DNA from: a virus
DNA length: 64,000 bases
Reading direction: 5' to 3' (one strand)
IMG/VR virus record: IMGVR_UViG_3300036817_000176
Span: 21,947 to 85,946 of that record
The notes beneath the pieces are model-generated. The model was given only the letters and a program-made list of their open reading frames with translations. It searched no databases and was not told where the DNA came from. This document shows, in pieces, positions 18,574-64,000 of this stretch; positions within the stretch are counted from its first letter, which is position 1, and each line of letters opens with the position of its first letter. A program made the translations under genes and the position numbers.

Positions 18574-18585
18574 TGGAGTAAAAGT

Positions 18586-35924: not shown

Positions 35925-35974
35925 CCGGATTTTCATCCAATAGAGCCAATCCGCAAAAACAGGGCCGGGACGGT

Positions 35975-48386: not shown

Positions 48387-48635
48387 TTATCCACTGGATA
48401 GATCCCATAAGAGATCCCTAAAGAGATCCATACAGTACCAAACAGATCCCGGCAGGCTGCAAGCCGCTCCGGTTGTGGCTTCAAGGCACTTTAGGATGTG
48501 TGCTGGAGGGGAAAAGGTGTGCGCTGGAGGGAAAAAGATGTGTGCTGGAGGGTTGTAAATGTGTGCTGGAGGGAATTAAGATGTGTGCTGAAGGGAAAAA
48601 ACAGGCCTTATTCACGATCTTTCGTCTTATCCACA
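48387..48635 (+). other. P1-type plasmid origin of replication (oriR)
   Basis: In order: DnaA box TTATCCACT (48387-48395); four AGATCC/Dam-site repeats (48400, 48412, 48424, 48444); five RepA iterons (48495-48598); and a perfect DnaA box TTATCCACA (48627-48635) just before repA. This is the layout of P1 oriR, where Dam methylation and DnaA control opening. P1 has five heptamers in this region as remembered; four are visible here. Confidence 0.92.
48495..48598 (+). repeat. Five RepA-binding iterons
   Basis: 19-bp direct repeats of the type GATGTGTGCTGGAGGGAA starting at 48495, 48516, 48537, 48558 and 48580, so spaced 21-22 bp or two helical turns. They match the P1 iteron sequence as remembered. 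They are RepA binding sites and probably overlap the repA promoter, allowing autorepression. Confidence 0.95.
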
Positions 48636-48654
48636 GAGTGATGGTAACTGATTG

Positions 48655-49515
48655 ATGGACAAACATTTTATAGCTGATGCGCTGTATGCTGATATGGAAA
48701 GCAAGGCGAAAGAGTTAACAGTTAATTCTAACAATACCGTGCAGCCTGTCGTACTCATGCGATTGGGCGTATTTGTTCCCAAACCCACAAAAAACCAGCC
48801 CGAAAATAACGAGATTGATGCCTCTCAAGTATTTTCACAGCTGGAGATCGCCCGGGCGGAAGGTTACGACAATATTAAAATTACCGGACCCCGCCTGGAT
48901 ATGGACACCGATTTTAAAGTGTGGGCGGGCGTTATCTATGCGTTCAGTCAGTACGGCCTGTCCTCAAATTCAATTCAGCTTTCTTTCCAGGAGTTCGCAA
49001 AGTTTTGCGGGTTCCCGTCCAAACGGCTTGATATCAAGTTAAGAAAGACTATCCACGCATCGCTGGGGCGACTTCGTAACAAAGGGATCTCTTTCAGTCG
49101 CGGCAAGAGCGTGTTGGGTAGCTATCATACCGGCCTACTCAAGACAGGTTATTTTGATGCCGAACGTGACATTGTTGAGCTTGAGGCCGATTCCAAGCTA
49201 TGGGAAATATTTCAGTTAGATTACCGGGTATTGTTGCAGCAGCACGCTCTACGGGCCTTACCCAAAAAAGAGGCGGCGCAGGCGATCTACACCTTCATCG
49301 AAAGCCTTCCTTCCCGGCCGGTTCCTATCTCGTTCGCGCGTATCCGTGAGCGACTGGCATTGATCTCAAGTATTAGTGAGCAGAACCGGACTATCAAAAA
49401 AGCTATCGAGCAGCTTAAATCCATCGGATACCTGGATTGCTCGATTGAAAAGCAAGGCCGGGAGAATTTCATCATCGTTCACTCGCGCAACCCAAAACTG
49501 AAGCCATCAGTTTAG
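48655..49515 (+). CDS. repA: P1-type replication initiator RepA
   Basis: 286 aa from ATG 48655 (a TTG lies one codon earlier), equal in length to P1 RepA as remembered. Blocks such as ESKAKELTVNSNNTVQP, KITGPRLDMDTDFK and QAIYTFIESLP appear near-identical to P1 RepA. It binds the iterons on both sides to start plasmid replication. The TAG stop overlaps the first downstream iteron. Incompatibility with P1/IncY plasmids is a reasonable prediction. Confidence 0.97.
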   Translation: MDKHFIADALYADMESKAKELTVNSNNTVQPVVLMRLGVFVPKPTKNQPENNEIDASQVFSQLEIARAEGYDNIKITGPRLDMDTDFKVWAGVIYAFSQYGLSSNSIQLSFQEFAKFCGFPSKRLDIKLRKTIHASLGRLRNKGISFSRGKSVLGSYHTGLLKTGYFDAERDIVELEADSKLWEIFQLDYRVLLQQHALRALPKKEAAQAIYTFIESLPSRPVPISFARIRERLALISSISEQNRTIKKAIEQLKSIGYLDCSIEKQGRENFIIVHSRNPKLKPSV

Positions 49516-49999
49516 ATGTGTGCTGGCGGGAAGATGCCCTCCAGCGCACACTTTTGAGGGCAATATTTACATCCTCTTCCCGCCGAACAGAACGTTAGCC
49601 AGTTCATGGCCAACGTTAGCTAATTCATGGAAACGGCCTTAAAAGGGCTTTATTTCGGGCGCGAACCGGCGTCCAGCAACTACGCGCCATGAATAGACGA
49701 ACATCCATCATGAATAGACTAACGCTGGAATGTTGGCTGGAGGATGTGTGCTGTAGGGAAGATTCCCTCCAGCACACATTTTAAGGGAAGGATTTATATG
49801 GCTCCCCGCCAGGCCTTGCCAGATGAGCGTTAACTTAATTCCGTCATTGACCGGCAGGATGTAAAAATTACCCTCGACAGCAACCAGACGACCCTTTTTG
49901 TGTGCGCTGGCGGGAAAAAGTGGACGGTGGAGGGAACAATCAGGGCAAAACCGGCATGTTCGGTGTGCGCTGCAGGGAAATTTCCCTCCAGCACCCACT
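49515..49999. repeat. incA-like control iterons in back-to-back pairs
   Basis: Seven iterons downstream of repA: plus strand at 49515, 49743, 49899 and 49962; minus strand at 49535-49553, 49762-49780 and 49981-49999. Six form inverted, nearly abutting pairs. In P1 the incA locus sits here and limits copy number by handcuffing RepA-iteron complexes. No partition genes follow, unlike P1. No gene is seen between 49516 and 50075. Confidence 0.9.
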
Positions 50000-50075
50000 A
50001 TGTGGACCTCATTTACATGAGGCAACAGGCAGAAAAAAGCCCGCTCGATGGCGGGCGTGTCGGTTCCTGGCGCGA

Positions 50076-50429
50076 TTATTCCCCCTGCAGGAGTTCAGCT
50101 GCCGCGCCGTCCGGATCGGCATCGCTCAGGCGCTCGAGACACTTGCTGCAGACAACGCAGCGGTAACCATGCACGCCGACACGCGGTGTACGGGGCGGAG
50201 TCAGGCCACGGGCCTTACAGAACGTCACCCACTGACCGGCACGGCGCAGCAGGCACTCAATGGACATCTGGCGCCATGGTTGCATTGGCTCATCCATGTT
50301 GCTCATCAGCGAACGGGTGGAGATCCCGAGCTGTTCGGCAAACTCTTTGTGGGTCGAAATACCCAGGAGTCTCATGGCCAGTGGAATATGCTCATGAGTA
50401 ATATTTGTGATAGGGTCGATCTGGGTCAC
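50076..50429 (-). CDS. Helix-turn-helix regulator with CxxC motif, 117 aa
   Basis: Residues 27-46 (HKEFAEQLGISTRSLMSNMD) form a probable helix-turn-helix. The C-terminal part has CVVCSKC (91-97), a possible zinc site. The HTH region resembles that of the 63466 protein (KFAKLLGLSGHHSL). It lies directly downstream of a three-site operator array, which it may bind; autoregulation is an inference. Confidence 0.65.
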   Translation of the reverse strand: MTQIDPITNITHEHIPLAMRLLGISTHKEFAEQLGISTRSLMSNMDEPMQPWRQMSIECLLRRAGQWVTFCKARGLTPPRTPRVGVHGYRCVVCSKCLERLSDADPDGAAAELLQGE

Positions 50430-50478
50430 TGGCGGGTTCCGTAAGAGACATTATGCTTATCGCCCAGGGTACTCGTGA

Positions 50479-50537
50479 TGCGAAAATATTTCCACTTTCT
50501 GCGAAAATATTTCCACATTTTGCGACAATATTTCCTA
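50479..50537. promoter_or_regulatory. Operator array 1: three quasi-palindromes, 21-bp spacing
   Basis: TGCGAAAATATTTCCAC at 50479-50495 and 50500-50516, and TGCGACAATATTTCCTA at 50521-50537. The starts are exactly 21 bp apart. They lie 50-108 bp upstream of the minus-strand HTH gene. The same array design occurs at 63280-63338. Confidence 0.8.
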
Positions 50538-50547
50538 CTGCAGGCGT

Positions 50548-50569
50548 AAAAAAGCCCGGCGAACCGGGC
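50548..50569 (-). terminator. Intrinsic terminator of the darB/ulx unit
   Basis: On the minus strand: GCCCGG, TTCG loop, CCGGGC, followed by six T. It sits just after the stop of the 50586 gene and isolates it from operator array 1. Confidence 0.9.
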
Positions 50570-50585
50570 TTATGGGGTTGAAGGG

Positions 50586-51008
50586 TTAACCCAGCTTGCT
50601 CTGAATAATCTCTTCCATGCCATCATCAACCAGTTCGTATGCGTAGGTATCGCCGTCCGGTAAATCAAGCTGGTGGCTTGCGGTGCGGATCTTGCCCTCT
50701 GCGAATCGTTCCTGTTGATACGCCCACGCCGCGCACAAGGTCAGGGCAGGGCTCGCCAGGGTGTAACGCTGCAGCGTGCCCAGCTCCAGAGCATTCCCCC
50801 GGATCTCGATGCCGCGCGCAGCCATCAGCGCCTTCAGTGGCCACCAGTACGGACCATAGCCACGATACTGGCGAGGATCTTTCTCCAGCACGCTCAGCAG
50901 CCCGGCCAGATAGCCGGTAATAAATTCCTCTTCGGTCCGGTCGGCCGTGGCTTCCGCCAGCAGCGGGGCCAGTTCCTCAGAGGTGGGGATCACGGTATCG
51001 GCGATCAT
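50586..51008 (-). CDS. Ulx-like protein, 140 aa
   Basis: Start at 51008, overlapping the darB stop by 4 bp (ATGA). Contains ITGYLAGLLSVLEKDPRQYR and GYGPYWWPLKALMAARGIEI. In P1, ulx lies beside darB and its product is a Dar-system virion component; the assignment is by adjacency and size. Confidence 0.6.
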   Translation of the reverse strand: MIADTVIPTSEELAPLLAEATADRTEEEFITGYLAGLLSVLEKDPRQYRGYGPYWWPLKALMAARGIEIRGNALELGTLQRYTLASPALTLCAAWAYQQERFAEGKIRTASHQLDLPDGDTYAYELVDDGMEEIIQSKLG

Positions 51009-54000
51009 TCTTCGGTTACTCCCAGTACGTTTGCGATTTCTTTCATGGATGCCGACGCGGGAATAAACCACCAGCCGCCCGGAAACTCATCTGACACCGA
51101 ATCCGCAAAGAACACAAGCCCACGCCCCTCGCCGAAAGCGGCCTTAATGTTCTCTTTCTTGTCGTAAAGCAGACCGTTCTTGCCCTGCTTGTCGAACAGG
51201 CCGATCACCTCACCCACATCCTTCTTAACCGCCGGACGCGTGCGCCAGCGCCCCCGGAACTGGTATTTGCTCGGCGACTGATTGATGGCCAGCGCGTTGC
51301 GGCGAACCAGCACCGTATCGAGCTGAATGTCACCGGCGCTGGTGGCCTCGACGGTGGCCTCGGCGACAACTTTAGCCTCCTGCAGCTGCTCCTGTTCGAC
51401 CGGCGTCGGTTCCGGTTTTTCCTCTTCCGGTGCGTCGCCCTTCAGCCAGGTCTCAAGCAGGTCCTGGTTCTTGTTACCGTAGGACCCGCCGTAGGTCACA
51501 TAGATGGCGTTGTCGAAGGCGGTGCGCAGGCCTGCTGCGGTGTTTTCTGACGGTGCTGCAGCGATACCGGGGGCCATCAGGTCAGCCACGGCAGACGGCA
51601 GATCAAACCCATCCTGGCGGACATACGGGCCTTCCTTCGCGTTGCGCAGTTCGCCTGCGAAGGTATAGCCATTGGCGCTGCGGTTTCTCGTGGCCATTTC
51701 GCGGACCCAGCTCAGGCGGATGACGCGAGTTTCACGGCTGGTATTCTGACGTTCCAGCTCGAAGCGGGCGGCCAGTTCGGCATCCTTGCGCGCCTGCGCG
51801 GCCCGTTTCGCCTCTTTAACCTCCGCGTCCAGTGTGTCTTCGCCGGTCTTAATGGCGGCTTCAAAGGCGGTACGGTTGCTCCACTCAGCAGGGATCGCTT
51901 TCTTCGCGGCCTTGCTGAAATAGTAGGAGGTCATATTATTCAGTTCATAGGACGGATCAGCGCGGTAGGCGGCGAGGGTGGAAGCCAGCCACTCGTTAAT
52001 CAGCTGTTCCGGCGCCGTGTTGCCGTACCCCTCGACCGCCGCAACGATGTCGGTACCGTACAGAATGGTGAGCCAGTTCTTCGGTGCCTGGCTGGCATCG
52101 CCATACGTGCTGGTCGGGAACCGGCTACGATCGGCCAGCAGCCACTTCGCCAGATTTGCCTTCAGGGCGGCGTCGTTCACGTCCGGATAGACGATGCGGC
52201 TCAGCAAACCGGACTTCATCGGCTTGTCGCCGTAACGCTCAACGTAGTTCACCTCAAACGCGTTGCCGTCCTCACCATGCAACAGGAAATACGAATCGGT
52301 CAGCACCAGTGACCGGCTGATCAGGTGCTGGCTGAACTGACCGGCATCCAGTAGCCTCGTCGCGCGGGCGAGGGTAAGCGCCTCAGACATTTCTTTCCAG
52401 ACTTCCAGCTCAGACGGCGTATAGCTGACCTCATTCTGGAAGGACGCAACGTCATACCATACCTTGTTGTCCGGTTTTAGGGACACGCCTCGCAGGCGGT
52501 TCGGGACGTGGATCAGGGTGACCAGCGCCTGCTTGTCGTCAAAGTGCAATTTATCAGCCCGGGCAATGACGCCGGATGCCATCTGGTAGACGCGGCCCAC
52601 GCGCACGGTATGGATACCGTCGGTCAGGAACTCGTTACCCTTGTCCAGCATATCGGCTGGCATTTCCAGCAGGCCTTTTTTGATGGCCTCCTCGAGGGAT
52701 GGGCGCAGGCGCTTCAGGGCATCGGCGGCTTTAGCGTTACGCTCCGTGCGACGCTCCGCCATCAGCAGGTTTTTGCGCGCCTTCGCCAGTTCGGCCCGGT
52801 TGGCACTGACCTCTTTCTGGCTTTCTTTGGCCTGCTGTTTGAAGTATCCGGCCATGTAAGTATCGCCTTCGGAGTTGGCGAGGTTGCGGGTGAAGGCTTC
52901 GCTGTGAACGGTGACGTTCCGCTCAAAGCGGGCGACATCCTCTTTCAGCTTGCTGACGGTGGTCTGCAGTTCCGCCGGGTCACCGCTCTGATCGTGCGCG
53001 GCCTTCAGGTAGTTATGCAGGTCGATGCCAGCGCGGCGGCGGGCGGCTTCCTCGACCCGGGCGCGGGCCTTCTCCTGGTTCGCCTCGATGCGGGCGCGGC
53101 GTTCTTCCGGATCGGCGGCAAGGAGCAAGCTGGCCTCCATGGCGTCGTCGGCGTCGGCGTTCTTCATCTTCTCGGCGTCACTGGTGAACAGCTCATTCTG
53201 CCAGTTGGCCTTGCGCTTGAGCGTGTCCAGACGGAACTGGTCAAAGCTGCCTTTGCCCACGTAGTAATGCACGCGGACTTTCTTCTGTTTGGCACCCACG
53301 CGCGCGCCACGGCCGTTACGCTGCTTGATACTGGCCGGTGTCCACGGGAGGGTAAGGTGGTGAATGTCGGTGGTACCGTGATGCAGGTTGACGCCCACCT
53401 CGGCTTTTTTGTTGCAGATCAGGATGCGGATACGGCCGTCGTTGTAGGCCCCGGCGAACTTCTCCAGACTGGCCTGTTCGCCGTCCACACCTTTCTCGCT
53501 GACCGTCTTCGCGTTGATGATCCCGATCTCGCTTTCCGGGATGCCGAGGCTGTTCACGATGATGCGCTTCAGCTTCTCGTGCTGCGACTTCTCCTCGGTA
53601 AAGATAATCTGCTTACCGCCTTGCTCGTAGCCGGTCTTCAGGTTCTCCAGCATACGGGCGTACTTCGGCATCAGCGGGTGCGATACGTCGCTGGCGGTGA
53701 TGTCGAACTGGCTCAGACGGTTGATCACCTCCTGCTCGTACAGCTCAGGCACAACAAGCGTTACGGCGTGTTCGCTGGTGGTCACCCGGGCGTCCAGTTT
53801 GACCTGGTTCACTACCTTTTCGGCGTCCTCATCCTGCTTGTCGTCATCGCCACCGGCGAGCTTGATACTTTCCGGCAGGTCGGCCACCAGTTTGCCCACG
53901 GCGTCGGCATACTTCAGCGGGAACCGGAACGTCATGGTACGGCGGTACAGGTCCATATCCGTACATACGCGGTCCATGTCACGGATGATGGCAAAGGTGA

Positions 54001-57000
54001 AATCTTCCGGCTCGTCCTCGTTATCGGGGCCTTTCTCTTTCTTCTTGCTCAGGGCTTCAGCGCGCTGGCGCAGTTCTTCATAGACGACGGACTGCTCAGG
54101 GGTCATGTCTGACTCAGCCAGCAACTCCTCGAGATCCGGAATGGTGACAGTATGTGACACGTCTTTCGCGTCTTTGAGGTTCACCCAGCGGTGGAAAAGG
54201 GAGCGCAGCCCGGAGAGGTTTTTAAAGCCCACCAGGCCTTGCTTCAGCTCCACTTCGCCGGAGAGCTTCTGAACCATTACATCTTCAACTTCGCCGAACA
54301 CCTTGATGAAGTCGTCCACGTCGGCGATCCCCAGCTGCCCCCACTCCTCGTTATTCAGCAAGTGTGACAGCATGTTGAAGATATCGATCGGGGAGTTCAC
54401 GGTCGGGGTGGCGGTCAGCATAACCGGCCCACGGCCGTCGTACTTCTCGCGCATGTACGAGGACTTGACCGCCAGATCGATAGCGACCTTCGCGCTCGCC
54501 TGCGTCGGCAGGTAGGCCAGCTTGGAGGACTCGCGGCCCGCCTGGTAGCTGTTGCGGTAGTTGTGGGCTTCATCGACGATCAGACTGTCAAAGCCCATAT
54601 CCTCCCAGTACGGCACATCCAGCGCCTTATCGGTACCGGTGTTGCTGTGCTTCTCGGCGAATTTCTCTTTCTTCATCGCCTCGCGGTGGTTTTTGGCCAC
54701 GGCGAGGATCTTGCCGCCGCGCAGGCCTGCCGCTTCCATACGCTCCGCGTGGGCAACGATGGATTCCGGGCGCATGGGGATGGTGGCCAGTTGCTCTTTG
54801 GTCATCACCACAGTGTCATAGTTAGACTGCGGGATGGCGTTAAGACGCGCCTTAACCTCTTTCGTACCCAGGATTTTCAGCTTGTCGCGGGTCAGCTCCT
54901 CGCCGTTGGCGCCCAGGCGCGGGTTACCCTCGTCATCCCGTATGACTTCCTGCTCAATCTGGCCATCCTTGCCCATCACCGGCTCGACGCCGACAAAGAG
55001 CATTCGTGAGAAGGTGGCTTCGTCGTAGAACGTCTTACTTTCGTGGTACCAGTTCTCGAGCACGGCCAGCGGCACGGCGATCCCTGCACGTTTAGAGCGG
55101 CCCATCTGCCGGTTGTAGGCCACAAGCCCCAGCGCGGTCGTGGTTTTACCGAGCCCGGTACCGTAGGCCAGCACGCCGCGCCCGTCTTCAGACGCCCGTC
55201 GGATCCCCGAGCACTGATAGCCGAACGGCACGATACGCCCCGAGATACCGTCCAGCTGCAGGTCGGCGTCGCTATGGTCGAAGTTAACAAAGCCGTTAAA
55301 GCTGTCGTTATACAGGTCGGCCAGCTTCTCGATGTCATCATGCTGGCGTAGCCAGACAGCAAACTGGTCCTCGATGCCCTTGATACGTTCACGGTACGCG
55401 GCCGCACCGGCGGCATCACCCGAGCGGACGGTCACGCCGTTGAGGTAGTTCTCGAGCTGGCGCTCGAATTGCTCGTTGGCGTTGCTGCGCTTCTTACCGT
55501 CACGCACACCGTAGCCGCTCCAGACGCCATCGCTGCCCTGATACTCCTTGTCCTCCACCATGTCGCCGTCGTCGCCGGTGGTGATTTTGGAATACTGGAT
55601 CTCGCTGTAGCCGCTCTCTTTCAGGAACTCGAGCACGTAGCTGCGCGGGACCCATTTGGCGGCCATGGTCATTTCGATGTCATCGACTTTGGCCCGGAAC
55701 CGGCGGCGCTCGATCTCATCCAGCTGGGCCTGATAGTTCGACAGGATGGCCGGGTCTTTCTCGTTACCCATGGCGTTGATCAGCTTGCGACGGGTGGCAA
55801 CAATGTTCCCGCTGGTGGCGCGGTCCATTGGCATCAACATGCCGTCTGCAGTGATGGCCACGCCCGGGATCTTCGCCAGTTCGCCGAGCGTCTTACCCTC
55901 ATCGCCGCGGTACAGGTCGGCAAAATCGGACACATCGACCGGGTTAAGCTCGAGCTGGCTGAACAGATAGGCGACGGTCTGCGCGGCGCTGGTGTCGTCA
56001 AAGGCGTGAACCGGACCACGATCCAGCGTGCCGGACATCAGGGCGCTGAATTTGCCGTTTACGTCGGTTGCGGTCACAAAGGCGTTCCATGCACCTGCAG
56101 CGGCGCCACCGCCCAGGGTAGAGAGCTTGCGATCGGCGGCGGCCACCCCGAAAACTTTCATTTCGGCATTGGTCAGGTCGCGCAGTTCGGCGGCTGTTTC
56201 CGGTGGGATAACGCCGGTTTCGTTGACCTCGCCCAGCATTCCCTGGATGCGATGGCCAATCAGCGCCCCGCGCACGATACGGGCGCGATGCTCGGCCGGT
56301 TGCGCGTTGGCCAGACGGATGGCATCAGCAACGATCCCATGCGTCGCGTCCGGGAAGTCGCGGTGAACGGCCATCAGTTGTGTGTGGCTCAGCTCCAGCG
56401 CATTCAGCGGGGACTGGTCCATCATGGTGTAGAGCTGGCGCAGCGAACTGGCCCCGTACACTTCCGCGCTGATAGTGTCACCGTCGCTGGCCACCGAAGA
56501 GGTGGAGCTCTGCCATTCACCGTTAACCAGTCGGCGCCAGCGGCCATTGATCATGCGCTCATCGCCTTCGTCATACGTTGGTGTGACCGGTTCGGTCAGC
56601 TCCAGCGCCAGCCAGTCAATGCGTGATTCGAACTTGTGGGCCAGCCGGTCTTTGATCTGCGCGTTAGTAGTGGCACCTTTGTCCACGACGGTGCGGGCAA
56701 ATTTGCCGACGCCCTGCGTGGACTGTTCGCCGTGAATGAATCGCTTGCCCTCGGCCGTGTCAAACCACTTGCCGTTGATGAACGTGTCCCAGAGAACGTT
56801 GGCTTCAGCCAGCACGGCCTTTTTGCGACCGTTCACCAGCTCGGCCATGCCTTCCGGATGCTTGCGCATAACCAGAATGTCGGTGGCCGTATCGGTACCG
56901 TTATTGGAGAAGGTACCCGAGGGGAGACGATGGGCACCCAGGAACTCGGCCTTCAGGCTGATCTCGGCGCGCCACTTTTTGAACTTGGCGCCGCTGACGA

Positions 57001-57709
57001 TGCGCATTGGTACCACGACGGTCATCAGGGAGCCGGGCTTAATCTTGTCGAGGATACGCGAGACGAAATACTGATCCACGTACTTCATATGGGCGTATTC
57101 AGGATCAAGCGCCCCATAGCTGCCGCGCGTTTCACCAAATGGCACGTTACCCACGGCCCCGTCCCAGCTGTTGTCTTCGGCGCTCACGGCCAGCGATTCG
57201 AATGACTTGTTAACCACCTTGTCTTCCGGGTGGAGGAGCTGGTTCACCTGCGAGCTGGTTTCATCGATCTCGGTGGCGGTCATCAGCGCACCGGCGGGCT
57301 TGGTACCGTGGAAAACACCGGCACCGGCGGACGGCTCCAGGTAGTTACCCGGGCCCTGTCCCTGGTTGGCCATCAGCTGCCAGATCCCCTCTGCCACCCA
57401 CTGGGGAGTGTAATACTCGTGGATACTGCCGCCGATGCCGCCCAGACCGGAATACTGGCGCAGGATAGTGCGATCTTCCTCGGTGAGCTGGCTGGCATCC
57501 GTGCCTACCCGGGCAAGAACTCCGAGCACGCGCTCGTTAGCCTCCCGGCGGGCGCGTTCTACCGATACGCCGTCTTCCTTCTCGATGCCGTACACGGCCC
57601 CGACCCGGCTGGCGGTCGGGAACAGGCGATCGTACTCTGCCAGGAGGCTGGTCAGGCTGCGTGCCTCCAGAATGGCAGATACCGCGCTTGCCACAGCGGT
57701 TATAGACAT
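51005..57709 (-). CDS. darB: DarB antirestriction protein: methyltransferase plus SNF2-type helicase, 2234 aa
   Basis: N-terminal methyltransferase region with EPSAGAG (about 122) and catalytic-type GNVPFG (about 183). The helicase core has Walker A GTGLGKT (about 848), Walker B LIVDEAHNY (about 1044), LTATPT and motif VI QRNGRGARVG (about 1462). Coiled coil at about 1540-1650. Size and domain order equal P1 DarB (about 2255 aa), which is packed in the head, enters the cell and protects DNA in cis from type I restriction. ATG 57709 has GAGAGGA upstream. Confidence 0.95.
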   Translation of the reverse strand: MSITAVASAVSAILEARSLTSLLAEYDRLFPTASRVGAVYGIEKEDGVSVERARREANERVLGVLARVGTDASQLTEEDRTILRQYSGLGGIGGSIHEYYTPQWVAEGIWQLMANQGQGPGNYLEPSAGAGVFHGTKPAGALMTATEIDETSSQVNQLLHPEDKVVNKSFESLAVSAEDNSWDGAVGNVPFGETRGSYGALDPEYAHMKYVDQYFVSRILDKIKPGSLMTVVVPMRIVSGAKFKKWRAEISLKAEFLGAHRLPSGTFSNNGTDTATDILVMRKHPEGMAELVNGRKKAVLAEANVLWDTFINGKWFDTAEGKRFIHGEQSTQGVGKFARTVVDKGATTNAQIKDRLAHKFESRIDWLALELTEPVTPTYDEGDERMINGRWRRLVNGEWQSSTSSVASDGDTISAEVYGASSLRQLYTMMDQSPLNALELSHTQLMAVHRDFPDATHGIVADAIRLANAQPAEHRARIVRGALIGHRIQGMLGEVNETGVIPPETAAELRDLTNAEMKVFGVAAADRKLSTLGGGAAAGAWNAFVTATDVNGKFSALMSGTLDRGPVHAFDDTSAAQTVAYLFSQLELNPVDVSDFADLYRGDEGKTLGELAKIPGVAITADGMLMPMDRATSGNIVATRRKLINAMGNEKDPAILSNYQAQLDEIERRRFRAKVDDIEMTMAAKWVPRSYVLEFLKESGYSEIQYSKITTGDDGDMVEDKEYQGSDGVWSGYGVRDGKKRSNANEQFERQLENYLNGVTVRSGDAAGAAAYRERIKGIEDQFAVWLRQHDDIEKLADLYNDSFNGFVNFDHSDADLQLDGISGRIVPFGYQCSGIRRASEDGRGVLAYGTGLGKTTTALGLVAYNRQMGRSKRAGIAVPLAVLENWYHESKTFYDEATFSRMLFVGVEPVMGKDGQIEQEVIRDDEGNPRLGANGEELTRDKLKILGTKEVKARLNAIPQSNYDTVVMTKEQLATIPMRPESIVAHAERMEAAGLRGGKILAVAKNHREAMKKEKFAEKHSNTGTDKALDVPYWEDMGFDSLIVDEAHNYRNSYQAGRESSKLAYLPTQASAKVAIDLAVKSSYMREKYDGRGPVMLTATPTVNSPIDIFNMLSHLLNNEEWGQLGIADVDDFIKVFGEVEDVMVQKLSGEVELKQGLVGFKNLSGLRSLFHRWVNLKDAKDVSHTVTIPDLEELLAESDMTPEQSVVYEELRQRAEALSKKKEKGPDNEDEPEDFTFAIIRDMDRVCTDMDLYRRTMTFRFPLKYADAVGKLVADLPESIKLAGGDDDKQDEDAEKVVNQVKLDARVTTSEHAVTLVVPELYEQEVINRLSQFDITASDVSHPLMPKYARMLENLKTGYEQGGKQIIFTEEKSQHEKLKRIIVNSLGIPESEIGIINAKTVSEKGVDGEQASLEKFAGAYNDGRIRILICNKKAEVGVNLHHGTTDIHHLTLPWTPASIKQRNGRGARVGAKQKKVRVHYYVGKGSFDQFRLDTLKRKANWQNELFTSDAEKMKNADADDAMEASLLLAADPEERRARIEANQEKARARVEEAARRRAGIDLHNYLKAAHDQSGDPAELQTTVSKLKEDVARFERNVTVHSEAFTRNLANSEGDTYMAGYFKQQAKESQKEVSANRAELAKARKNLLMAERRTERNAKAADALKRLRPSLEEAIKKGLLEMPADMLDKGNEFLTDGIHTVRVGRVYQMASGVIARADKLHFDDKQALVTLIHVPNRLRGVSLKPDNKVWYDVASFQNEVSYTPSELEVWKEMSEALTLARATRLLDAGQFSQHLISRSLVLTDSYFLLHGEDGNAFEVNYVERYGDKPMKSGLLSRIVYPDVNDAALKANLAKWLLADRSRFPTSTYGDASQAPKNWLTILYGTDIVAAVEGYGNTAPEQLINEWLASTLAAYRADPSYELNNMTSYYFSKAAKKAIPAEWSNRTAFEAAIKTGEDTLDAEVKEAKRAAQARKDAELAARFELERQNTSRETRVIRLSWVREMATRNRSANGYTFAGELRNAKEGPYVRQDGFDLPSAVADLMAPGIAAAPSENTAAGLRTAFDNAIYVTYGGSYGNKNQDLLETWLKGDAPEEEKPEPTPVEQEQLQEAKVVAEATVEATSAGDIQLDTVLVRRNALAINQSPSKYQFRGRWRTRPAVKKDVGEVIGLFDKQGKNGLLYDKKENIKAAFGEGRGLVFFADSVSDEFPGGWWFIPASASMKEIANVLGVTEE

Positions 57710-57740
57710 AGAAAGTCCTCTCAGGGTTGAATAAACCCCG

Positions 57741-57749
57741 ACATCCTAA
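57741..57749 (+). promoter_or_regulatory. ACATCCTAA element, site H
   Basis: ACATCCTAACC in the divergent darB/portal interval (57710-57868), 128 bp before the portal start. TATGAT at 57807-57812 is a possible -10 for the portal gene but has no matching -35 box. Confidence 0.55.
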
Positions 57750-57868
57750 CCTCATTGTGAAGTGAATGGATTATTGGACGATCCGCCGTCAGCGCCCGCG
57801 ATACGCTATGATCGGCCTGCCCCCTTCCTCCTCCCGCCCATGGTTAACCCCATTGGGAGGCCAGCCAG

Positions 57869-59569
57869 ATGGCTGAAACTACGAAAGCAGATACGAATGC
57901 AGAAAAAGGGCTGGTGTCGCTGCTGCGCCAGGCCTTCTCCGGGTTTAACCCGGACGACGCGCAGGACCGTGGCATTTTGCTGCAGGGCGCTGGTGGCTAT
58001 CACCTTGGCAATCCGCTTATGGCAGACAGCCCCACCAGCCAGAATGGCACTTCGGTAATCGGTGAACAGGACTGGATGGGGGAGAAGAAACTCCCGACAG
58101 ACCGCTTCGCCAAATACGCCCTGCTGGAAGACATGATCACCGATCCGGTGCTGTCGGCCGCGCTCGATATGCACATATCACATGCGCTCAGCGTGGACAG
58201 CCTCACGGGCAACATCCTGACAATTGAGGCCAAAACCGACGATGCGAAAGAGATCGCCGCGTCGCTCATGGCCGAACTGGGGCCGATGCTTAACACCGGT
58301 CTGCCGAGCTGGGCCAAACTAATGGCCGCGTTCGGCGTTCACTACATCCGCCCGTACTGCGAGCAGGGCAAGGGCATCATCGACATCGAGTCCTCCTGGT
58401 ACACGATGGCTCACCAGATCCGCGAATACGTCCGTGGCGGTCGGCTGGCAGGCTTTACCGGCGAATATCTCAAGACCCCGGCCCGCCCGGGTGAGGTCCA
58501 GCTGGTGGAGCCGTGGCAACTGGTCGGTCTGAAGGTACCGTACTGGCAACCGTCCTTGTCTCTGGAGCCGAAGGGCACCAGCGGCGCGCGCTATTCGCTG
58601 TATGACGATATTCACCGGCGCAAACCGACCGAAACGCAGGACTACGGCACCAGCTTCCTCGAGTTTGCCTACAGCTCGTGGTGCGACCTCAATGACGCCA
58701 TCCGCAGCCTGAAAGGGAGCCGCTATAACGCGAGCCGTATCGATCGCTTCGTGGCGCTCGGCATGGACAACCTCGACCCGGCACGCGCCGCTCAGCTCCT
58801 CAATATCGTCGGTACCCAGATGCGTAAGGACGCAGAAGCGGCCGCGCGCAAGGGCAAGGCGAAAGGCCTTATTCCGACTGTATGGAACCAAATCATCCCG
58901 AACCTTTCCGGTAACAAGGGCGGCGTGACGATCGATACGCAAGTGGTCAGCCCGGATATCCAGCACATCGAAGACGTGATGTTTCACCTCAAGCGCATGG
59001 CATCGGCACTCGGCATTGACGTGTCCATGCTCGGCTGGGGCGACCTGATGTCCGGCGGCCTCGGTGACGGCGGTTTCTTCCGCACGTCCATTCAGGCGGC
59101 CATCCGCGCGAACTGGCTGCGTGTCGGCATCGTGCAGGCCGTCAACCGGCTGATCGATATTCACATGGCCAACAAATACGGGAAGGTCTTCGGTGCAGGC
59201 GAGCTGCGCCCCATCGAAATTAAATTCCACTCACTCAATACCGCCATCGAGGCCGAACAGGCCGAAGCCATGGAAACGCGCACCAACTACGCCATGGCCC
59301 TGACCACCGTCCTCGACACGATCGAGAACGGGCGCCTGGCCGGTTCGGACGCTTTCAAGGAGCTCGTGCTGACCGACGTGGTGCGCCTCGATCCCGAGAA
59401 GGCGGCAGTAATCATTAAAGACCTCGCAAAGGCCGCTAAAGACGCCGCTGAAAACGAGGAGAGCTTCATGGAGTCCGTTGGCTACAAGGGACCCGAGAAG
59501 GGCTTCCAGAGTTATCTGGAGAGCGTAATCAATAAACAACTCGTTAATCTGTTAGGAGAGACACCGTGA
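57869..59569 (+). CDS. prt: Portal protein (P1 Prt-like)
   Basis: 566 aa. Typical portal layout: N-terminal beta/helical region, mid-region with SWAKLMAAFGVHYIRPYCEQ and EPWQLVGLKVPYW, and a long C-terminal helical stem (about 410-566). Its stop overlaps the protease start, as in P1 prt-pro. Forms the twelve-subunit ring at the packaging vertex. Transcribed divergently from darB. Confidence 0.85.
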   Translation: MAETTKADTNAEKGLVSLLRQAFSGFNPDDAQDRGILLQGAGGYHLGNPLMADSPTSQNGTSVIGEQDWMGEKKLPTDRFAKYALLEDMITDPVLSAALDMHISHALSVDSLTGNILTIEAKTDDAKEIAASLMAELGPMLNTGLPSWAKLMAAFGVHYIRPYCEQGKGIIDIESSWYTMAHQIREYVRGGRLAGFTGEYLKTPARPGEVQLVEPWQLVGLKVPYWQPSLSLEPKGTSGARYSLYDDIHRRKPTETQDYGTSFLEFAYSSWCDLNDAIRSLKGSRYNASRIDRFVALGMDNLDPARAAQLLNIVGTQMRKDAEAAARKGKAKGLIPTVWNQIIPNLSGNKGGVTIDTQVVSPDIQHIEDVMFHLKRMASALGIDVSMLGWGDLMSGGLGDGGFFRTSIQAAIRANWLRVGIVQAVNRLIDIHMANKYGKVFGAGELRPIEIKFHSLNTAIEAEQAEAMETRTNYAMALTTVLDTIENGRLAGSDAFKELVLTDVVRLDPEKAAVIIKDLAKAAKDAAENEESFMESVGYKGPEKGFQSYLESVINKQLVNLLGETP

Positions 59570-60534
59570 GACGCGTCGAAACCGCTATCAACATTCACAA
59601 AGAGGGGCGCTCAGGCCATAACGGGCGTCGCTATGTTCAGCATTCGGTCAGAGCCATGATCGACTCGGCCGCCACCCAGGAGGGGCTACGTCTGGGCGAG
59701 CTGTTCGGCTACTTTGGCCATACCGCCCGCACCCTGTCCGGCAAGATGAAACCGGATGAGCAGGAGGTCGTGATGGTTAACGGCAAGCCGGTCGTGATGC
59801 AGAACGTCCCCAGCAACCGGCTGGTGGATATCTCGCTCGATGACGACGGCACGCTGCATCACACGCAGGAGATCCTCGATACGCCGTCCGGCGGTCTGGT
59901 CTGCGCGATGATCGACAGCAACGCGGGCGGCTGGAGCTGGGCGGTGACCGGCCCGCGAAACAGCGCCGGTGACCACCCGCAAACCATGTACGGCTTTGAC
60001 TACGTGGCACAACCTAACTTCATCCCCCTGGTGCGCCAGGGCGCGATGCTGGACTCCGTGGGCGAAGACGTGATCACCCGTCTGGGCATGGACCGCGATG
60101 GCTACTGCGCGATGCTGGACAGCTGGGCGCAGGCGTCCGAGGCGCGCCATATTGAAGAGGCCAGCCTGTATGACATCATGATGCTGGACGGGATGCTGAT
60201 CGAGGAGCGTAACTCCTCGGCGCAGCTGAAGCGTGATCTGGAGGCGGCGAGGGAAGAGGCCCGCCAGGCGACAGAGGCCCGTCAGGAAGCGATGATGGAT
60301 GCGCTGGAGACTTACCCGGTGATGCTGACCAAAGAGCAGCGCCGCGCCATTGCCTCGATGGCCACGCCGGAGGATGCGCTGATCTTCCGCCAGTTCCTAG
60401 ATAGCCTGTCCCGTTCAGATCTGGGTAGCCTGCCGCTGGGCGGGAAACGCGAACCGCAGACGGCGGCGGTACCGAGTCAGTTCAGGGAGGTTCCGGGCGC
60501 GGTTGATTTTAATCACTCGCTCCGCTTGAGCTAA
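59566..60534 (+). CDS. pro: Prohead protease (P1 Pro-like)
   Basis: 322 aa, GTG start overlapping the portal TGA. N-terminal domain with FGYFGHTARTLSGKMKP and an APNRVVD-like segment VPSNRLVDISLDDDGTLHHT fits head maturation proteases, whose catalytic His and Ser lie in such blocks. The C-terminus (about 215-260) is a coiled coil, as in protease-scaffold proteins. It would cleave scaffold and head proteins during maturation. Confidence 0.75.
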   Translation: MRRVETAINIHKEGRSGHNGRRYVQHSVRAMIDSAATQEGLRLGELFGYFGHTARTLSGKMKPDEQEVVMVNGKPVVMQNVPSNRLVDISLDDDGTLHHTQEILDTPSGGLVCAMIDSNAGGWSWAVTGPRNSAGDHPQTMYGFDYVAQPNFIPLVRQGAMLDSVGEDVITRLGMDRDGYCAMLDSWAQASEARHIEEASLYDIMMLDGMLIEERNSSAQLKRDLEAAREEARQATEARQEAMMDALETYPVMLTKEQRRAIASMATPEDALIFRQFLDSLSRSDLGSLPLGGKREPQTAAVPSQFREVPGAVDFNHSLRLS

Positions 60535-60560
60535 AACACTGGATTGTTTGAGGTAATAAA

Positions 60561-60594
60561 CAAGCCCGCTCTGGTGATTCACCAGCGGGCTTTT
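60561..60594 (+). terminator. Intrinsic terminator after portal-protease
   Basis: Long hairpin GCCCG + CTGGT ... ACCAG + CGGGC (60564-60590) with a two-base bulge, followed by TTTT. Confidence 0.9.
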
Positions 60595-60710
60595 GTGAGC
60601 CTGTCAGGGTTTAGGTATTCTTTAGTCAAATACTTTACGAAAATCAGGCGCAGCAAGGTGTGGCGGGGTGTTCTTAATAAGTCAGTATTTAGTTTTAACT
60701 CAACCTTTGG

Positions 60711-60739
60711 TTGAATAAGTACAGTACACGGTTTACTAT
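60711..60739 (+). promoter_or_regulatory. Promoter-like sequence in a gene-free stretch
   Basis: TTGAAT (60711-60716), 17-bp spacer, TACTAT (60734-60739). A small hairpin TCAACC / GGTTGA (60700-60714) overlaps the -35 box and could be an operator. The stretch 60601-60825 is AT-rich and otherwise empty; the promoter would serve the gene at 60826. Confidence 0.5.
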
Positions 60740-60825
60740 ATGACCAGATAAGTTGTAATTAGTACCTGCAGAATCACCGGCTCAGCTAATAAGTAGAAGT
60801 CGGTATATGCGTGAGGAAGATACTT

Positions 60826-60996
60826 ATGAAAACATTTAAAGATATGACACCAATGGAACGCCTCGATTACATGCGTAAACACGGTGTGACTCTCTTTCCT
60901 AATCTCTCTAAGGAAGAAAAGAGAGCAGTGCTGTATGTCGAAAACGAACCGGCAGTATCAGCGCAAAGAACCGAGCATAAACTAGCCACCTATTGA
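60826..60996 (+). CDS. Small hypothetical protein, 56 aa
   Basis: ATG 60826 with AGGAAGA five bases upstream. Charged helical protein (MTPMERLDYMRKHGVTLFPN), not recognised. Its stop overlaps the 3' end of the convergent minus-strand gene by 7 bp. AT-rich compared with the structural genes; likely an accessory or regulatory gene. Confidence 0.6.
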   Translation: MKTFKDMTPMERLDYMRKHGVTLFPNLSKEEKRAVLYVENEPAVSAQRTEHKLATY

Positions 60997-61565
60997 TTGG
61001 TTGGTGGGGTTAGAACCTCATCAACCTTCACACTCATACTGGCAATAGCACCCTTCTGCCCTAACTTAAAACCGACTTCACCCTTCATGCTTCTCCTGTA
61101 CCGCTCAACAAGTTCCGGTGCAGGCTCACATATAGTAAGCACACCACGCCCCATAGCTTGCCCTAAGATTGCGCCATATGTGATGGACGCCGGTATCATG
61201 AAACCTTTAAGCGAGTCACAACGGATATCGCGCTGTACAAACTGCAGTTCGACCTCATCTGCCAATAACTTCCCGGAAAACAGTCCACCAAACACCCCGT
61301 TACTGGAGACGGCAACAATAAACTTCTCAGTGGAATATTTAGCCTTATGGTAGATATCTTCCCAGGACCAGCCGCCATACCCATCCTTGAAAGCTGACGT
61401 GTTAGGCCAGTTCTCTGCAACCATGTAATTCTGCTTTGAACACAATGTGTATTGAAGAGAAGGGGCAACAATTTCAGGGTAAGACTCCGCCATCTCTTGA
61501 GAGTACGCGTCAGCAGCCACAGGGCCAAGCCCAGAAATAAGAGCATTAAACTCAAGTTTGTTCAT
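60990..61565 (-). CDS. Accessory protein of unknown function, 191 aa
   Basis: ATG 61565 is preferred; a GTG at 61637 is possible. Mixed alpha/beta with GGLFSGKLLADEVELQFVQR and YGAILGQAMGRGVLTICEPA, a pattern loosely like acyltransferase-type small domains but without a diagnostic motif. AT-richer than neighbours, single gene, convergent with a small gene: looks like prophage cargo (moron). Confidence 0.6.
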   Translation of the reverse strand: MNKLEFNALISGLGPVAADAYSQEMAESYPEIVAPSLQYTLCSKQNYMVAENWPNTSAFKDGYGGWSWEDIYHKAKYSTEKFIVAVSSNGVFGGLFSGKLLADEVELQFVQRDIRCDSLKGFMIPASITYGAILGQAMGRGVLTICEPAPELVERYRRSMKGEVGFKLGQKGAIASMSVKVDEVLTPPTNQ

Positions 61566-61682
61566 GCAGCACCAGGTAGCAACACAAAGAATAGCAGCAT
61601 CATACCATGAGACATTAGGAGCTGAAAAATCCGGCACCTATGACACGGGACGATCGTTCTACCAGATGAGCAGGTTCAATAA

Positions 61683-61714
61683 ATAGGCCCCAAAAGGAGC
61701 CTATTTTTTTTGCC
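61683..61714. terminator. Terminator next to the second rep gene
   Basis: AATAGGC.CCC AAAA GGA.GCCTATT hairpin (61683-61707) followed by a run of T on the plus strand. It overlaps the end of the second rep gene and could act in both directions. Confidence 0.8.
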
Positions 61715-62594
61715 TGGTTCGGGTCGGTTTCTGGCGGCTATGAATCAAAACGAAGCGTTCACGGCCACGGGTCTGGATGTCGTAGTCCAGATAGCCGATC
61801 GCTTTCAGTTCGGTCAGCGCCTTAGTGATGCTGCGATTAGCTTCGGCCAGTTTGCTGGTGGTCAGGGCCACACGTTCGCGCAGGCGCGCAAAGGAGAGCG
61901 GGGCAGGGTCGGCGGGCAGGGCGGCGATAAACATATACAGGCACTGCGCCACCTCTTTCCGGCGTAGCGATTCCTGGAGCTCCATCGACAGCAGGATATT
62001 GTGATCGATGCGGTAGAGCTCCCAGAGGCACTTATCCGGAACCAGGCGCAGAACATCGCGCCGGGCATCGAACTCGGCAAGCTGCAGGAGGTGCGTTTTG
62101 AACTTGCTGCCGTCCGGGGCGCTGAAGGTGATCACCTGCGTCATGATGCGGGTAAGGCTATTGTCGATACGATGGCGCAACGCCGTTGTGAGCTGCTTTG
62201 ACGGGAAGCCGCAAAGGCTGGCGAACATCCTGAAGTCGATCTCCATGCCGGTGGCCTTAAACCCGTGCTGTTCAAAAACCTGCGTGATACCCGTCCAGAC
62301 GCGAAAATCCGTCTCGATATCCATAACCGCCCCGTAGATGGTCACCCGCTTATAACCCTCGGCCCGGGCGAAGGCCAGTTCGCGCATGGTATCGGACACG
62401 TCCGCCGATCGGCTCAGGTGTTTATTGTGCGGGTTGCGCGCCACCGGCGTGAAAATTTGCGTGCGCAAAATCAGGTTCGGGTGAACGGTGGATAACCTGT
62501 TGTGTTTTACTTCAGACAATGGCGTACCGTCTGGGACTGGTTTGTTGTAACCAATTGTTTTGTCTTCAAATAATGCTTGTGTTGCTAAAATCAT
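61701..62594 (-). CDS. Second plasmid replication initiator (RepA/Rep_3-type winged-helix), 297 aa
   Basis: Shares the RepA layout with the 48655 protein: FARAEGYKRVTIYGAVMDIE parallels RAEGYDNIKITGPRLDMD, CGFPSKQL parallels CGFPSKRL, and the C-terminal AIGYLDYDI ... LIHSR parallels SIGYLDCSI ... IVHSR. Start set at ATG 62594, because the longer frame to 62669 would run through the iterons. Its own iterons lie upstream at 62626-62736. Probably a second, independent replicon; whether plasmid or lytic is not known. Confidence 0.88.
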   Translation of the reverse strand: MILATQALFEDKTIGYNKPVPDGTPLSEVKHNRLSTVHPNLILRTQIFTPVARNPHNKHLSRSADVSDTMRELAFARAEGYKRVTIYGAVMDIETDFRVWTGITQVFEQHGFKATGMEIDFRMFASLCGFPSKQLTTALRHRIDNSLTRIMTQVITFSAPDGSKFKTHLLQLAEFDARRDVLRLVPDKCLWELYRIDHNILLSMELQESLRRKEVAQCLYMFIAALPADPAPLSFARLRERVALTTSKLAEANRSITKALTELKAIGYLDYDIQTRGRERFVLIHSRQKPTRTRQKK

Positions 62595-62625
62595 CTTTTG
62601 CTCAGTAACGTGTGACCGCTTCCAG

Positions 62626-62736
62626 TTATGGCTACATCGACTTCCATTTATGGCTACATCGTTTTCCACTTATGGCTACATCGAAATCCTTAAATCTCCA
62701 CTTATGGCTACATCGACTTCCACTTATGGCTACATC
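62626..62736. repeat. Iterons of the second replicon
   Basis: Five copies of the core TTATGGCTACATC at 62626, 62648, 62670, 62702 and 62724 (spacing 22, 22, 32, 22), most within a longer TTCCACTTATGGCTACATCG unit. They lie immediately upstream of the minus-strand initiator gene. A perfect DnaA box TGTGGATAA (62869-62877) and GATC-rich AT-rich DNA (62810-62850) complete an origin. Confidence 0.93.
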
Positions 62737-62950
62737 AAACCAACTTACCCACAGGCCGCAACAGCAGTAATGACGCGGCTCTCAGCGATATCGGCAAGGG
62801 TCGGGGATCTTTTAGGATCTTAAAAGAGGGATATATGGGGATCTATTGGGTATTAGCAGCACGTTTTTTGTGGATAACCGCTGCGAATAACCATGCGACC
62901 CGCTATTCCTTCAGGGCGTCACTAAAACAAAATATTAACTCGCAGACAAC

Positions 62951-62985
62951 AAAAAAAGGAGCCTTTCGGCTCCTGGTTAGGATGT
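62951..62985 (-). terminator. Terminator preceded by a minus-strand ACATCCTAA element (site I)
   Basis: On the minus strand: ACATCCTAA (62985-62977), then GGAGCC (62973-62968), loop GAAA, GGCTCC (62963-62958) and seven T. It ends the small gene at 63001. The element-then-terminator order repeats that of site D. Confidence 0.9.
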
Positions 62986-63000
62986 TACTTGCTACTAAAG

Positions 63001-63168
63001 CTAAATTATGGGGCAAGCCTCACAATATATCCTCGTTGCTTGTCTTAACAACCGGTTACGCGCGTCATGATTGATCTTCAGTGTCATAACCAGCGATTCA
63101 AATTCTTTCAGCTTCTCAAACGTGTTTATGCCATACAAAACACTGTAAAAAGATTCATATTTGCTCAT
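63001..63168 (-). CDS. Small protein, 55 aa
   Basis: ATG 63168 (preceded by GTGAG) to TAG 63001; sequence MSKYESFYSVLYGINTFEKL, then a charged helix and CEACPII at the end. Short, but with a clean terminator directly after it, so likely real. It lies between the second origin and operator array 2, a place typical for copy-control or partition accessory proteins. Function unknown. Confidence 0.6.
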   Translation of the reverse strand: MSKYESFYSVLYGINTFEKLKEFESLVMTLKINHDARNRLLRQATRIYCEACPII

Positions 63169-63279
63169 ATCTCACTAATCCGCTTCTTGATTTGAGATTT
63201 TATGCCACCAGCCCGGTGACGCCTTGCCGGTTCGTTTCGGAACCAACATGCTCACAATATGCCCCTTTAATGAACAAGT

Positions 63280-63338
63280 CACGAAAATATTTCGCATATA
63301 GGCTAAAATATTTACTATAAATAGGAAAATATTTCCTA
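63280..63338. promoter_or_regulatory. Operator array 2: three quasi-palindromes, 21-bp spacing
   Basis: Repeats centred on AAAATATTT: 63280-63296 (ACGAAAATATTTCGCAT region), 63301-63317 (GGCTAAAATATTTACTA) and 63322-63338 (TAGGAAAATATTTCCTA). Starts are exactly 21 bp apart, as in array 1. They lie 128 bp upstream of the 63466 start codon. The rest of 63169-63465 is AT-rich with no gene seen. Confidence 0.75.
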
Positions 63339-63465
63339 TCTCTTATGGCGAGGGTGGTAGTAAAATCTAAACAGCACCAAAAGACTCACAAATAAAACTT
63401 AGGATATTTGCAGGGGGATCTCCGTCGCGGTATCGTGTTACAACTTTTTGGATAAGAGGATTGTT

Positions 63466-63801
63466 ATGGATCTGGACGAACTGGACGCAGCGCGAATTTT
63501 GCTGGTTGGTGATGAGTTCGGGAGCAAGGGGAAGTTTGCGAAGCTGCTCGGCCTGTCTGGCCATCACTCGCTGCGCGGTTATTATCGCCGTGGGAGTGTC
63601 CCGAGGTGGATTGAGGTCCGCATCCTTGACTTGCTCGCTATGCGCGAAATGCGACTGGCTGAAGAAGCCAAAAAGGAAAAAAAAGCCCGTGCGCGCAAAG
63701 AGCGCCGTGCAAAACAGGATCTGGCTATCTTCGAAGCGGGGCCGGTTGCTGACAAGGATGATACTGATGATGATGCACCGGTGATCAAGGACGAAGACTG
63801 A
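63466..63801 (+). CDS. Small HTH-type protein with charged tail, 111 aa
   Basis: ATG 63466 with AGAGGA upstream. Residues 20-41 (SKGKFAKLLGLSGHHSLRGY) form a probable helix-turn-helix resembling that of the 50076 protein; VPRWIEVRILDLL follows in both (PWRQMSIECLL there). Residues 60-85 are Lys/Arg/Ala-rich, and the C-terminus is acidic. A probable DNA-binding regulator. Two bases separate it from the methyltransferase gene. Confidence 0.65.
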   Translation: MDLDELDAARILLVGDEFGSKGKFAKLLGLSGHHSLRGYYRRGSVPRWIEVRILDLLAMREMRLAEEAKKEKKARARKERRAKQDLAIFEAGPVADKDDTDDDAPVIKDED

Positions 63802-63803
63802 CA

Positions 63804-64000
63804 ATGTATCAGTTGATACACGCGGACCCGCCCTGGCGCTACTCCGACCGGAATGAAAACAGGGGCGGCGCCAGCCGCCACTACAACACCATGAGCCTTA
63901 AAGACATGAAGGCCATGAACGTCGCCGAACTGGCCGCGCCCACGTCTGTGCTCTGGATGTGGACCACTGCGCCCCAGCTCCCCGACTCCCTCGAGCTGAT
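63804..64000 (+). CDS. MT-A70-family DNA adenine methyltransferase, N-terminal part (runs off the window)
   Basis: 65 codons visible from ATG 63804. DPPW (residues 8-11) is the catalytic motif of the MT-A70 adenine-N6 group, followed by the typical HYNTMSLKDM and VLWMWTTAPQLP. Such enzymes methylate phage DNA to evade restriction or mimic host marks. Translationally linked to the HTH gene. Confidence 0.93.
   Translation, partial: MYQLIHADPPWRYSDRNENRGGASRHYNTMSLKDMKAMNVAELAAPTSVLWMWTTAPQLPDSLEL

Follow-up and report, generated by a model that had tools for sequence, protein, structure and literature searches.

Two arrays of helically phased boxes in a P1-related phage-plasmid: candidate operators of a phage regulator

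Box arrays and neighbouring genes

The stretch of DNA analyzed here (the window, 64 000 nt) covers positions 21947-85946 of the 85,946-bp virus record IMGVR_UViG_3300036817_000176. It carries two separate arrays of short boxes, each in the neighbourhood of a gene for a small helix-turn-helix (HTH) protein; from their sequence and recurrence we conclude that these are real, conserved binding-site (operator) arrays. The arrays and the genes around them are:

50482-50535, minus strand: array 1, three boxes spaced 21/21 bp; in plus-strand letters, 50482-50493 GAAAATATTTCC, 50503-50514 GAAAATATTTCC and 50524-50535 GACAATATTTCC
63283-63336, no strand assigned: array 2, three boxes spaced 21/21 bp; 63283-63294 GAAAATATTTCG, 63304-63315 TAAAATATTTAC and 63325-63336 GAAAATATTTCC
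50076-50429, minus strand: HTH1, 117 amino acids (aa), GTG start at 50429, with a predicted lambda-repressor-like domain and a cysteine (Cys)-rich tail
50586-51071, minus strand: Ulx-like gene (PHROG 1629, 'Ulx-like anti-restriction', E = 1.6e-37)
63001-63168, minus strand: open reading frame (ORF) of 55 aa
63466-63801, plus strand: HTH2, 111 aa, ATG at 63466, first gene of an operon running into an MT-A70 methyltransferase gene

The box consensus, GRAAATATTTYC, is near-palindromic and centred on a TA step. At 50479-50541 there are three 21-nt repeats, the first being TGCGAAAATATTTCCACTTTC and the next two 90% and 76% identical; in array 2 the exact core AAATATTT occurs at 63285, 63306 and 63327 (spacing 21, 21). 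The initial annotation had described two arrays of three repeats each at 21/21 bp, and both are present (50479-50541 and 63283-63336). It had also centred all repeats on AAAATATTT; this is the case for five of the six boxes, the core of the third box of array 1 being ACAATATTT.

When the whole window was simulated 60 times with a first-order Markov model, arrangements of this kind did not arise: no two exact cores lay 21 bp apart, and triples were absent even with one mismatch allowed per core. We then scored the 85.9-kb record with a matrix trained only on the boxes of distant Aeromonas relatives. The six window boxes ranked 1, 2, 3, 5, 7 and 8. The scores of the two triples were 55.9 and 48.2; the mean was -66.5 (standard deviation 14.4). 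The next-best triple, with a score of 29.5, was a shifted copy of array 1, so the two arrays stand alone. The motif is lineage-wide, given that a matrix built from Aeromonas boxes alone picks out those of the window as its best matches.

One could suppose that A/T-rich, helically phased boxes reflect intrinsic curvature, or low-complexity A/T sequence with no dedicated binder. We consider this extremely improbable: the recurrence is confined to palindromic boxes with fixed outer G and C, which stand out both in the simulations and in the cross-lineage scoring, and the central TA step interrupts the A-tract.

Conservation in related phage-plasmids

The first 124 positions of the record repeat the end of the window (63877-64000), as seen by comparison of the two ends, which makes a circular form of the 85.9-kb element probable. 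It is a P1-related phage-plasmid, an assignment that follows from its gene content: Ulx-like and darB-like genes, a portal gene whose product is 39% identical to the P1 portal, two Rep_3-type initiators, ParM and a tyrosine recombinase. Its close relatives are the Leclercia plasmid pM17-63 (W01), the Aeromonas salmonicida AS3 plasmid (W02), A. hydrophila pASP-135 (W03, NZ_CP016381) and an IMG/VR contig (G001); another IMG/VR contig (G002) is nearly identical to pASP-135 in the studied region. The five-genome set used below consists of the window element, the one Leclercia plasmid and three Aeromonas-type relatives (W02, W03 and G001).

In the part of the published account of pASP-135 available to us (PMC9600943) the plasmid is described as a phage-plasmid with some similarity to P1, too distant to count as P1-like; that part makes no mention of the arrays or the HTH genes. 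With a portal 86% identical and a darB-like protein ∼75% identical, pASP-135 and the window element belong to the same lineage. IS26-flanked resistance genes are annotated in both pM17-63 and pASP-135, the latter with blaKPC-2.

All five related phage-plasmids contain the boxes together with HTH1 and HTH2. Relatives that kept the genes and lost the repeats, which would have spoken against the arrays as proposed in the initial annotation, were looked for; five of five keep both. In contrast, nine P1/D6-like outgroup records sharing the portal gene (P1 and D6 included) had neither HTH2 nor paired boxes (0 of 9), nor a credible HTH1; the lone match, in a Serratia plasmid (E = 0.013), holds two internal stop codons. 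Alignment-based scans of IMG/VR yielded two contigs; protein queries with one HTH sequence at a time gave no match there, and neither HTH1 nor HTH2 was found in GTDB genome scans or INPHARED searches.

Array 1 of the Leclercia plasmid keeps three boxes at 21/21 bp; in its array 2 the outer two boxes are good and lie 41 bp apart, while the middle box has decayed with one base lost. The Aeromonas relatives have two boxes at 22 bp in array 1 and two at 21 bp in array 2. These boxes persist even though the flanking DNA, the spacers and the promoter flanks have diverged and HTH1 is merely 52-56% identical. Over the five genomes all box spacings (20, 21, 22, 30-31 and 41-42 bp) are close to whole helical turns.

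Two further paired arrays, both in promoter regions, were found in the Aeromonas relatives:

Array 3: W02 35924-35957; G001 46466-46498; pASP-135 near 23249 (one good and one poor box), directly upstream of a DNA adenine methylase gene
Array 4: W02 59439/59470; W03 129786/129817; G001 27283/27314; two boxes separated by 30-31 bp, between divergently oriented genes

Predicted promoters at array 1

To relate boxes to promoters, the distance from box centre to predicted transcription start was scanned from 0.5 to 139.5 bp (140 offsets) and scores were averaged over genomes. The features predicted at array 1 are:

50466-50494, minus strand: predicted HTH1 promoter, -35 TGGAAA (50494-50489), 17 bp, -10 TACCCT (50471-50466)
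about 50548-50573: terminator-like hairpin AAAAAAGCCCGGCGAACCGGGCTT downstream of the Ulx-like gene, read by eye in the sequence

The nearest box of array 1 lies ∼50 bp from the GTG of HTH1, in agreement with the initial placement of this array upstream of a small HTH gene, and the predicted -35 element falls inside this box. A standard promoter scan of array 1 gave none at the strict cut-off, thus the prediction rests on conservation of a weaker match: in each of the five genomes the highest-scoring candidate for the HTH1 promoter (TTGGAA/TTGGTA/TGGAAA-17-TACGAT/TAAGCT/TACCCT) shares sequence with the array. The box centre is at -27.5/-28.5 of the predicted start and the offset profile peaks at -27.5. 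Together, these predictions suggest that array 1 is the operator of HTH1's own promoter and serves autorepression.

A link of array 1 to the darB side, as initially proposed, comes down to adjacency. HTH1 forms a monocistronic unit adjoining ulx/darB, and it is this unit that array 1 appears to serve; the ulx/darB operon is separated from the array by the hairpin, which a strict terminator scan did not list. We do not think that the Ulx-like gene is under array 1 control.

Predicted promoters at array 2

Array 2 lies in a divergent region, with HTH2 starting ∼128 bp away on one side and the 55-aa ORF ∼112 bp away on the other; an HTH gene is indeed downstream of it, as first described, and so is this second gene. 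The signals predicted here are:

63254-63282, minus strand: predicted promoter of the 55-aa ORF, -35 GTGACT (63282-63277), 17 bp, -10 TATTGT (63259-63254)
62974-62957, minus strand: terminator after the 55-aa ORF, from the terminator scan
63407-63436, plus strand: predicted HTH2 promoter, TTTGCA (63407-63412), 18 bp, TATCGT (63431-63436), present in all five genomes

The -35 element of the leftward promoter abuts the nearest array 2 box, and the box centres are at -41.5, -62.5 and -83.5. The offset optimum of array 2 was -41.5 for this promoter (mean score 6.7; next 2.9), with a score of at least 5.0 in each of the five genomes; the best offset for array 4 was -61.5. CRP occupies -41.5 at class II promoters and -61.5 at class I promoters (PMC6301791). 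The offsets of arrays 2 and 4 suggest an activator-like placement; as the scan covered more than one offset and strand, and one array did not fit, they fall short of proof.

On the other side, Aeromonas genomes have the nearest box ∼89 bp upstream of the HTH2 +1 and the enteric pair ∼112 bp, and no phased position of boxes relative to this promoter is shared by the five genomes. As the -41.5 fit holds in all five genomes and the HTH2 promoter is distant and unphased, the probable target of array 2 is the 55-aa ORF rather than the HTH2/methyltransferase operon. The proposed link to the methyltransferase side is not borne out: the best conserved promoter predicted for HTH2-MT-A70 is ∼110 bp off and unphased, whereas array 2 abuts that of the 55-aa gene.

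The 55-aa ORF is conserved in all five genomes (60-78% identical in relatives) and had no Pfam or PHROG match. It has a C-terminal CxxC and a highly conserved leader, 63169-63250 (TCTCAAATCAAGAAGCGGATT); an Rfam search of 62400-64000 gave no match.

Candidate binding proteins

Orthologues of HTH1 in the four relatives are 52-97% identical. In its AlphaFold model the predicted local distance difference test score (pLDDT) is about 80-92 over residues 11-80, with confident helices at residues 12-73. The Foldseek matches, all of them weak, are lambda-repressor-like throughout (186 CI, 434 repressor, P2 C, HigA2, Aca2/7/10, C.BclI), and Phage_CI_repr (PF07022) matched below threshold in two of four members (best E = 0.079). 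The Cys-rich tail (about 50120-50220, minus strand) weakly recalls the TraR/DksA C4 zinc finger, a lead only: the TraR zinc-finger family TIGR02419 matched one orthologue (L005 10455-10787) below threshold, with E = 0.019. As a single-gene unit with array 1 on its predicted promoter and with a predicted lambda-repressor-like fold, HTH1 is the likeliest binder; that it binds both arrays is a proposition for which we see an even chance.

HTH2 orthologues are 51-88% identical in relatives. It could be HTH2 that binds the boxes, controlling array 2 from its own operon and repressing HTH1 at array 1. Its conservation and strict co-occurrence with the boxes equal those of HTH1; the gene adjoins array 2 in all five genomes, and the HTH2 regions of Leclercia and the window, array 2 included, are 86% identical. 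However, with the HTH2 promoter 89-112 bp from the nearest box and without a common phase, no autoregulation of HTH2 is visible, and its model (pLDDT 76) has no convincing match in PDB to known DNA-binding folds. No Pfam match was found for the window member either, and a sequence search of PDB found nothing. We regard HTH2 as an unlikely binder.

The HTH regions of the two proteins had been thought to resemble each other. We saw no significant similarity by BLASTP (E = 0.21 over 14 residues) or by profile-profile comparison (probability 3.3% over 12 columns); homology of HTH1 and HTH2, unsupported by either method, was dropped.

Another protein shared by the lineage, or a host factor, might bind the boxes instead. 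The lineage has kept further small proteins that may bind DNA, such as a ribbon-helix-helix-like protein (record 5281-5595) and a protein at 702-1010, and ribbon-helix-helix repressors bind repeated palindromes. Yet none of these genes adjoins an array, and a general host factor would have to be reconciled with the nine outgroup phage-plasmids, several of them in enteric hosts, that are without paired boxes; we hold this explanation to be quite improbable. The XRE gene behind MT-A70 in Aeromonas phages was rejected as binder, being missing from the operon of the window genome, and a host RcsAB-type box was set aside, since its GAA/TTC spacing differs by 2 bp.

Replication and partition

Two complete replicons are present in one genome (window 48488-50019 and 62621-62739), of which the relatives appear to keep one:

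48652-49515: Rep, its gene preceded by ten P1-like iterons of the GATGTGTGCTGGAGGGAAAA type at 21-bp spacing
61701-62669: Rep, with TTATGGCTACATCGA iterons at 22 bp

Both arrays are ∼0.5 kb from an iteron-bearing replicon and might be replication iterons themselves. Moreover, in about ten IMG/VR contigs (L038, L039, L040, L042-L045, L048, L049 and L051) a gene encoding an HTH_36 domain contains two or three copies of GGAAATATTTTCC, ∼22 bp from one to the next. In these unrelated phages the copies are often split by G or C runs and are mostly in a replication-type HTH_36 gene; they are probable in-gene origin iterons, a layout comparable to the lambda ori inside gene O. For the window arrays, however, we find an iteron role very improbable: each of the two Rep proteins has a distinct set of iterons, no replicon lies close to array 1 in the Aeromonas relatives, and the boxes occupy promoter regions, not coding DNA. 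Since the window genome has no HTH_36 protein, the likeness of the palindromes is probably convergent; an HTH_36 initiator was rejected as binder on the same grounds.

The initial annotation offered a partition site as an alternative, and repeated palindromes at helical spacing are indeed typical of centromeres such as parC. Still, ParM (record 18021-19154; with the small gene directly behind it the unit spans 17596-19154) is ∼30 kb away from array 1 and, counted around the circle, ∼19 kb from array 2, and its equivalents are away from the arrays in the relatives too. Neither HTH1 nor HTH2 has a neighbouring NTPase gene, and the boxes lie on promoters at two to four dispersed loci (four kinds in all). 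A centromere function is thus disfavoured to the point of being scarcely credible, and the placement of the boxes suggests control of transcription rather than partition or replication.

Proposed regulation

The arrays are very probably operators of some phage regulator, as far as can be read from sequence. Given the shared motif, the helical phase kept and the co-occurrence with both HTH genes in every relative, a single regulator that serves both loci and contacts the DNA on one face, as was envisaged initially, is the most economical reading; two related regulators, the other version of that claim, find no evidence in the sequences. We see an even chance that this phage-encoded regulator of the P1-related phage-plasmid family is HTH1.

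In the scheme that we propose for HTH1, a dimer would occupy each near-palindromic box, and neighbouring dimers, two helical turns apart, would lie on one face of the DNA and could bind cooperatively. On array 1 HTH1 would cover the -35 region and lower its own synthesis; on array 2, at -41.5/-62.5 of the leftward promoter, it may activate the 55-aa gene. While motif, spacing, conservation and co-occurrence are observed, the promoters and the fold are predicted, and the binder, the cooperativity and the sign of regulation are inferred. The whole scheme, activation at array 2 included, is offered tentatively and appears to us somewhat doubtful.

Several observations weigh against it. All promoters are predicted, and that of HTH1 is weak in the window genome (score 6.2). 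In W02 and G001 the top-scoring leftward GTGACT promoter is one turn further, which puts the boxes at -52.5, and a weaker one fits -41.5. The best offset of array 3 was -16.5, with -42.5/-41.5 second. In Leclercia the third box of array 1 and the middle one of array 2 have decayed. Every Foldseek match of HTH1 is weak (E of at least 0.54), and co-occurrence, as perfect for HTH2 as for HTH1, cannot choose between the two binders.

One could speculate further that HTH1 represents a new family of small phage regulators, with a lambda-repressor-like HTH and a Cys-rich tail, running a dispersed regulon in P1-related phage-plasmids. One box module would then be reused: in a repressor position at HTH1, in a class II activator position at the 55-aa gene and in class I positions at two further operons of the Aeromonas phages, one of them upstream of the DNA adenine methylase of pASP-135. 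We rate this extension as possible and rather unlikely.

Self-regulation of phage-plasmids outside the P1 group is little described; P1-related phage-plasmids spread resistance genes (PMC9600943). The analysis yields a defined operator motif, a few candidate regulators and named target promoters, and it corrects the reading of array 2, whose likely target is the conserved 55-aa gene and not the methyltransferase operon.

Other features of the window

The motif TTAGGATGTT (reverse ACATCCTAAC) is strongly over-represented; TTAGGATRTT has 7 occurrences in the window, where 0.11 would be expected. Most plus-strand sites lie next to terminators or a short way ahead of late genes, and the motif is conserved in relatives; perhaps it is a late-promoter or RNA element. 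Its sites are:

6212, 7127, 14728, 20413, 35293, 35993, 44377, 57749 (-), 62977, 63399 (+)

Comparison with known systems

P1 and D6 themselves, unlike the window element, have neither the arrays nor the HTH genes. The positions of box centres relative to predicted promoters, -41.5 for array 2 and -61.5 for array 4, resemble the class II and class I sites of CRP (PMC6301791); protein and motif are different, and the positions here are predicted.

Controller proteins of restriction-modification (R-M) systems of the C.Esp1396I type are likewise small HTH proteins with several operators, placed at their own promoter and at promoters of other genes, a methyltransferase gene among them, and with paired dimer sites (PMC3758141); one of them, C.BclI, turned up as a weak match in the fold search with HTH1. 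Unlike these proteins, HTH1 has no adjoining restriction endonuclease (no R-M endonuclease was seen among the ORFs neighbouring it), no match in Pfam or NCBIfam to C-protein families, a different box (GRAAATATTTYC) and an extra Cys-rich tail; also, the methyltransferase operon is not clearly under an array. Aca autorepressors are small phage HTH proteins acting on inverted repeats at their own promoters, and Aca2, Aca7 and Aca10 are weak fold matches of HTH1. In contrast to them, HTH1 stands alone in its unit, with no acr gene as partner, and it is accompanied by several dispersed arrays.

HTH1 differs from the repressors of lambda, 186 and P2 in having just 117 aa, in its location outside an immunity switch and in matches below every threshold. 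It resembles them in the predicted lambda-repressor-like HTH, in three operators per array and in an operator on its own promoter. Lambda CI represses one promoter and activates another (PR and PRM), and the same would be possible for HTH1. The regulon proposed here is undescribed, yet of a known type.

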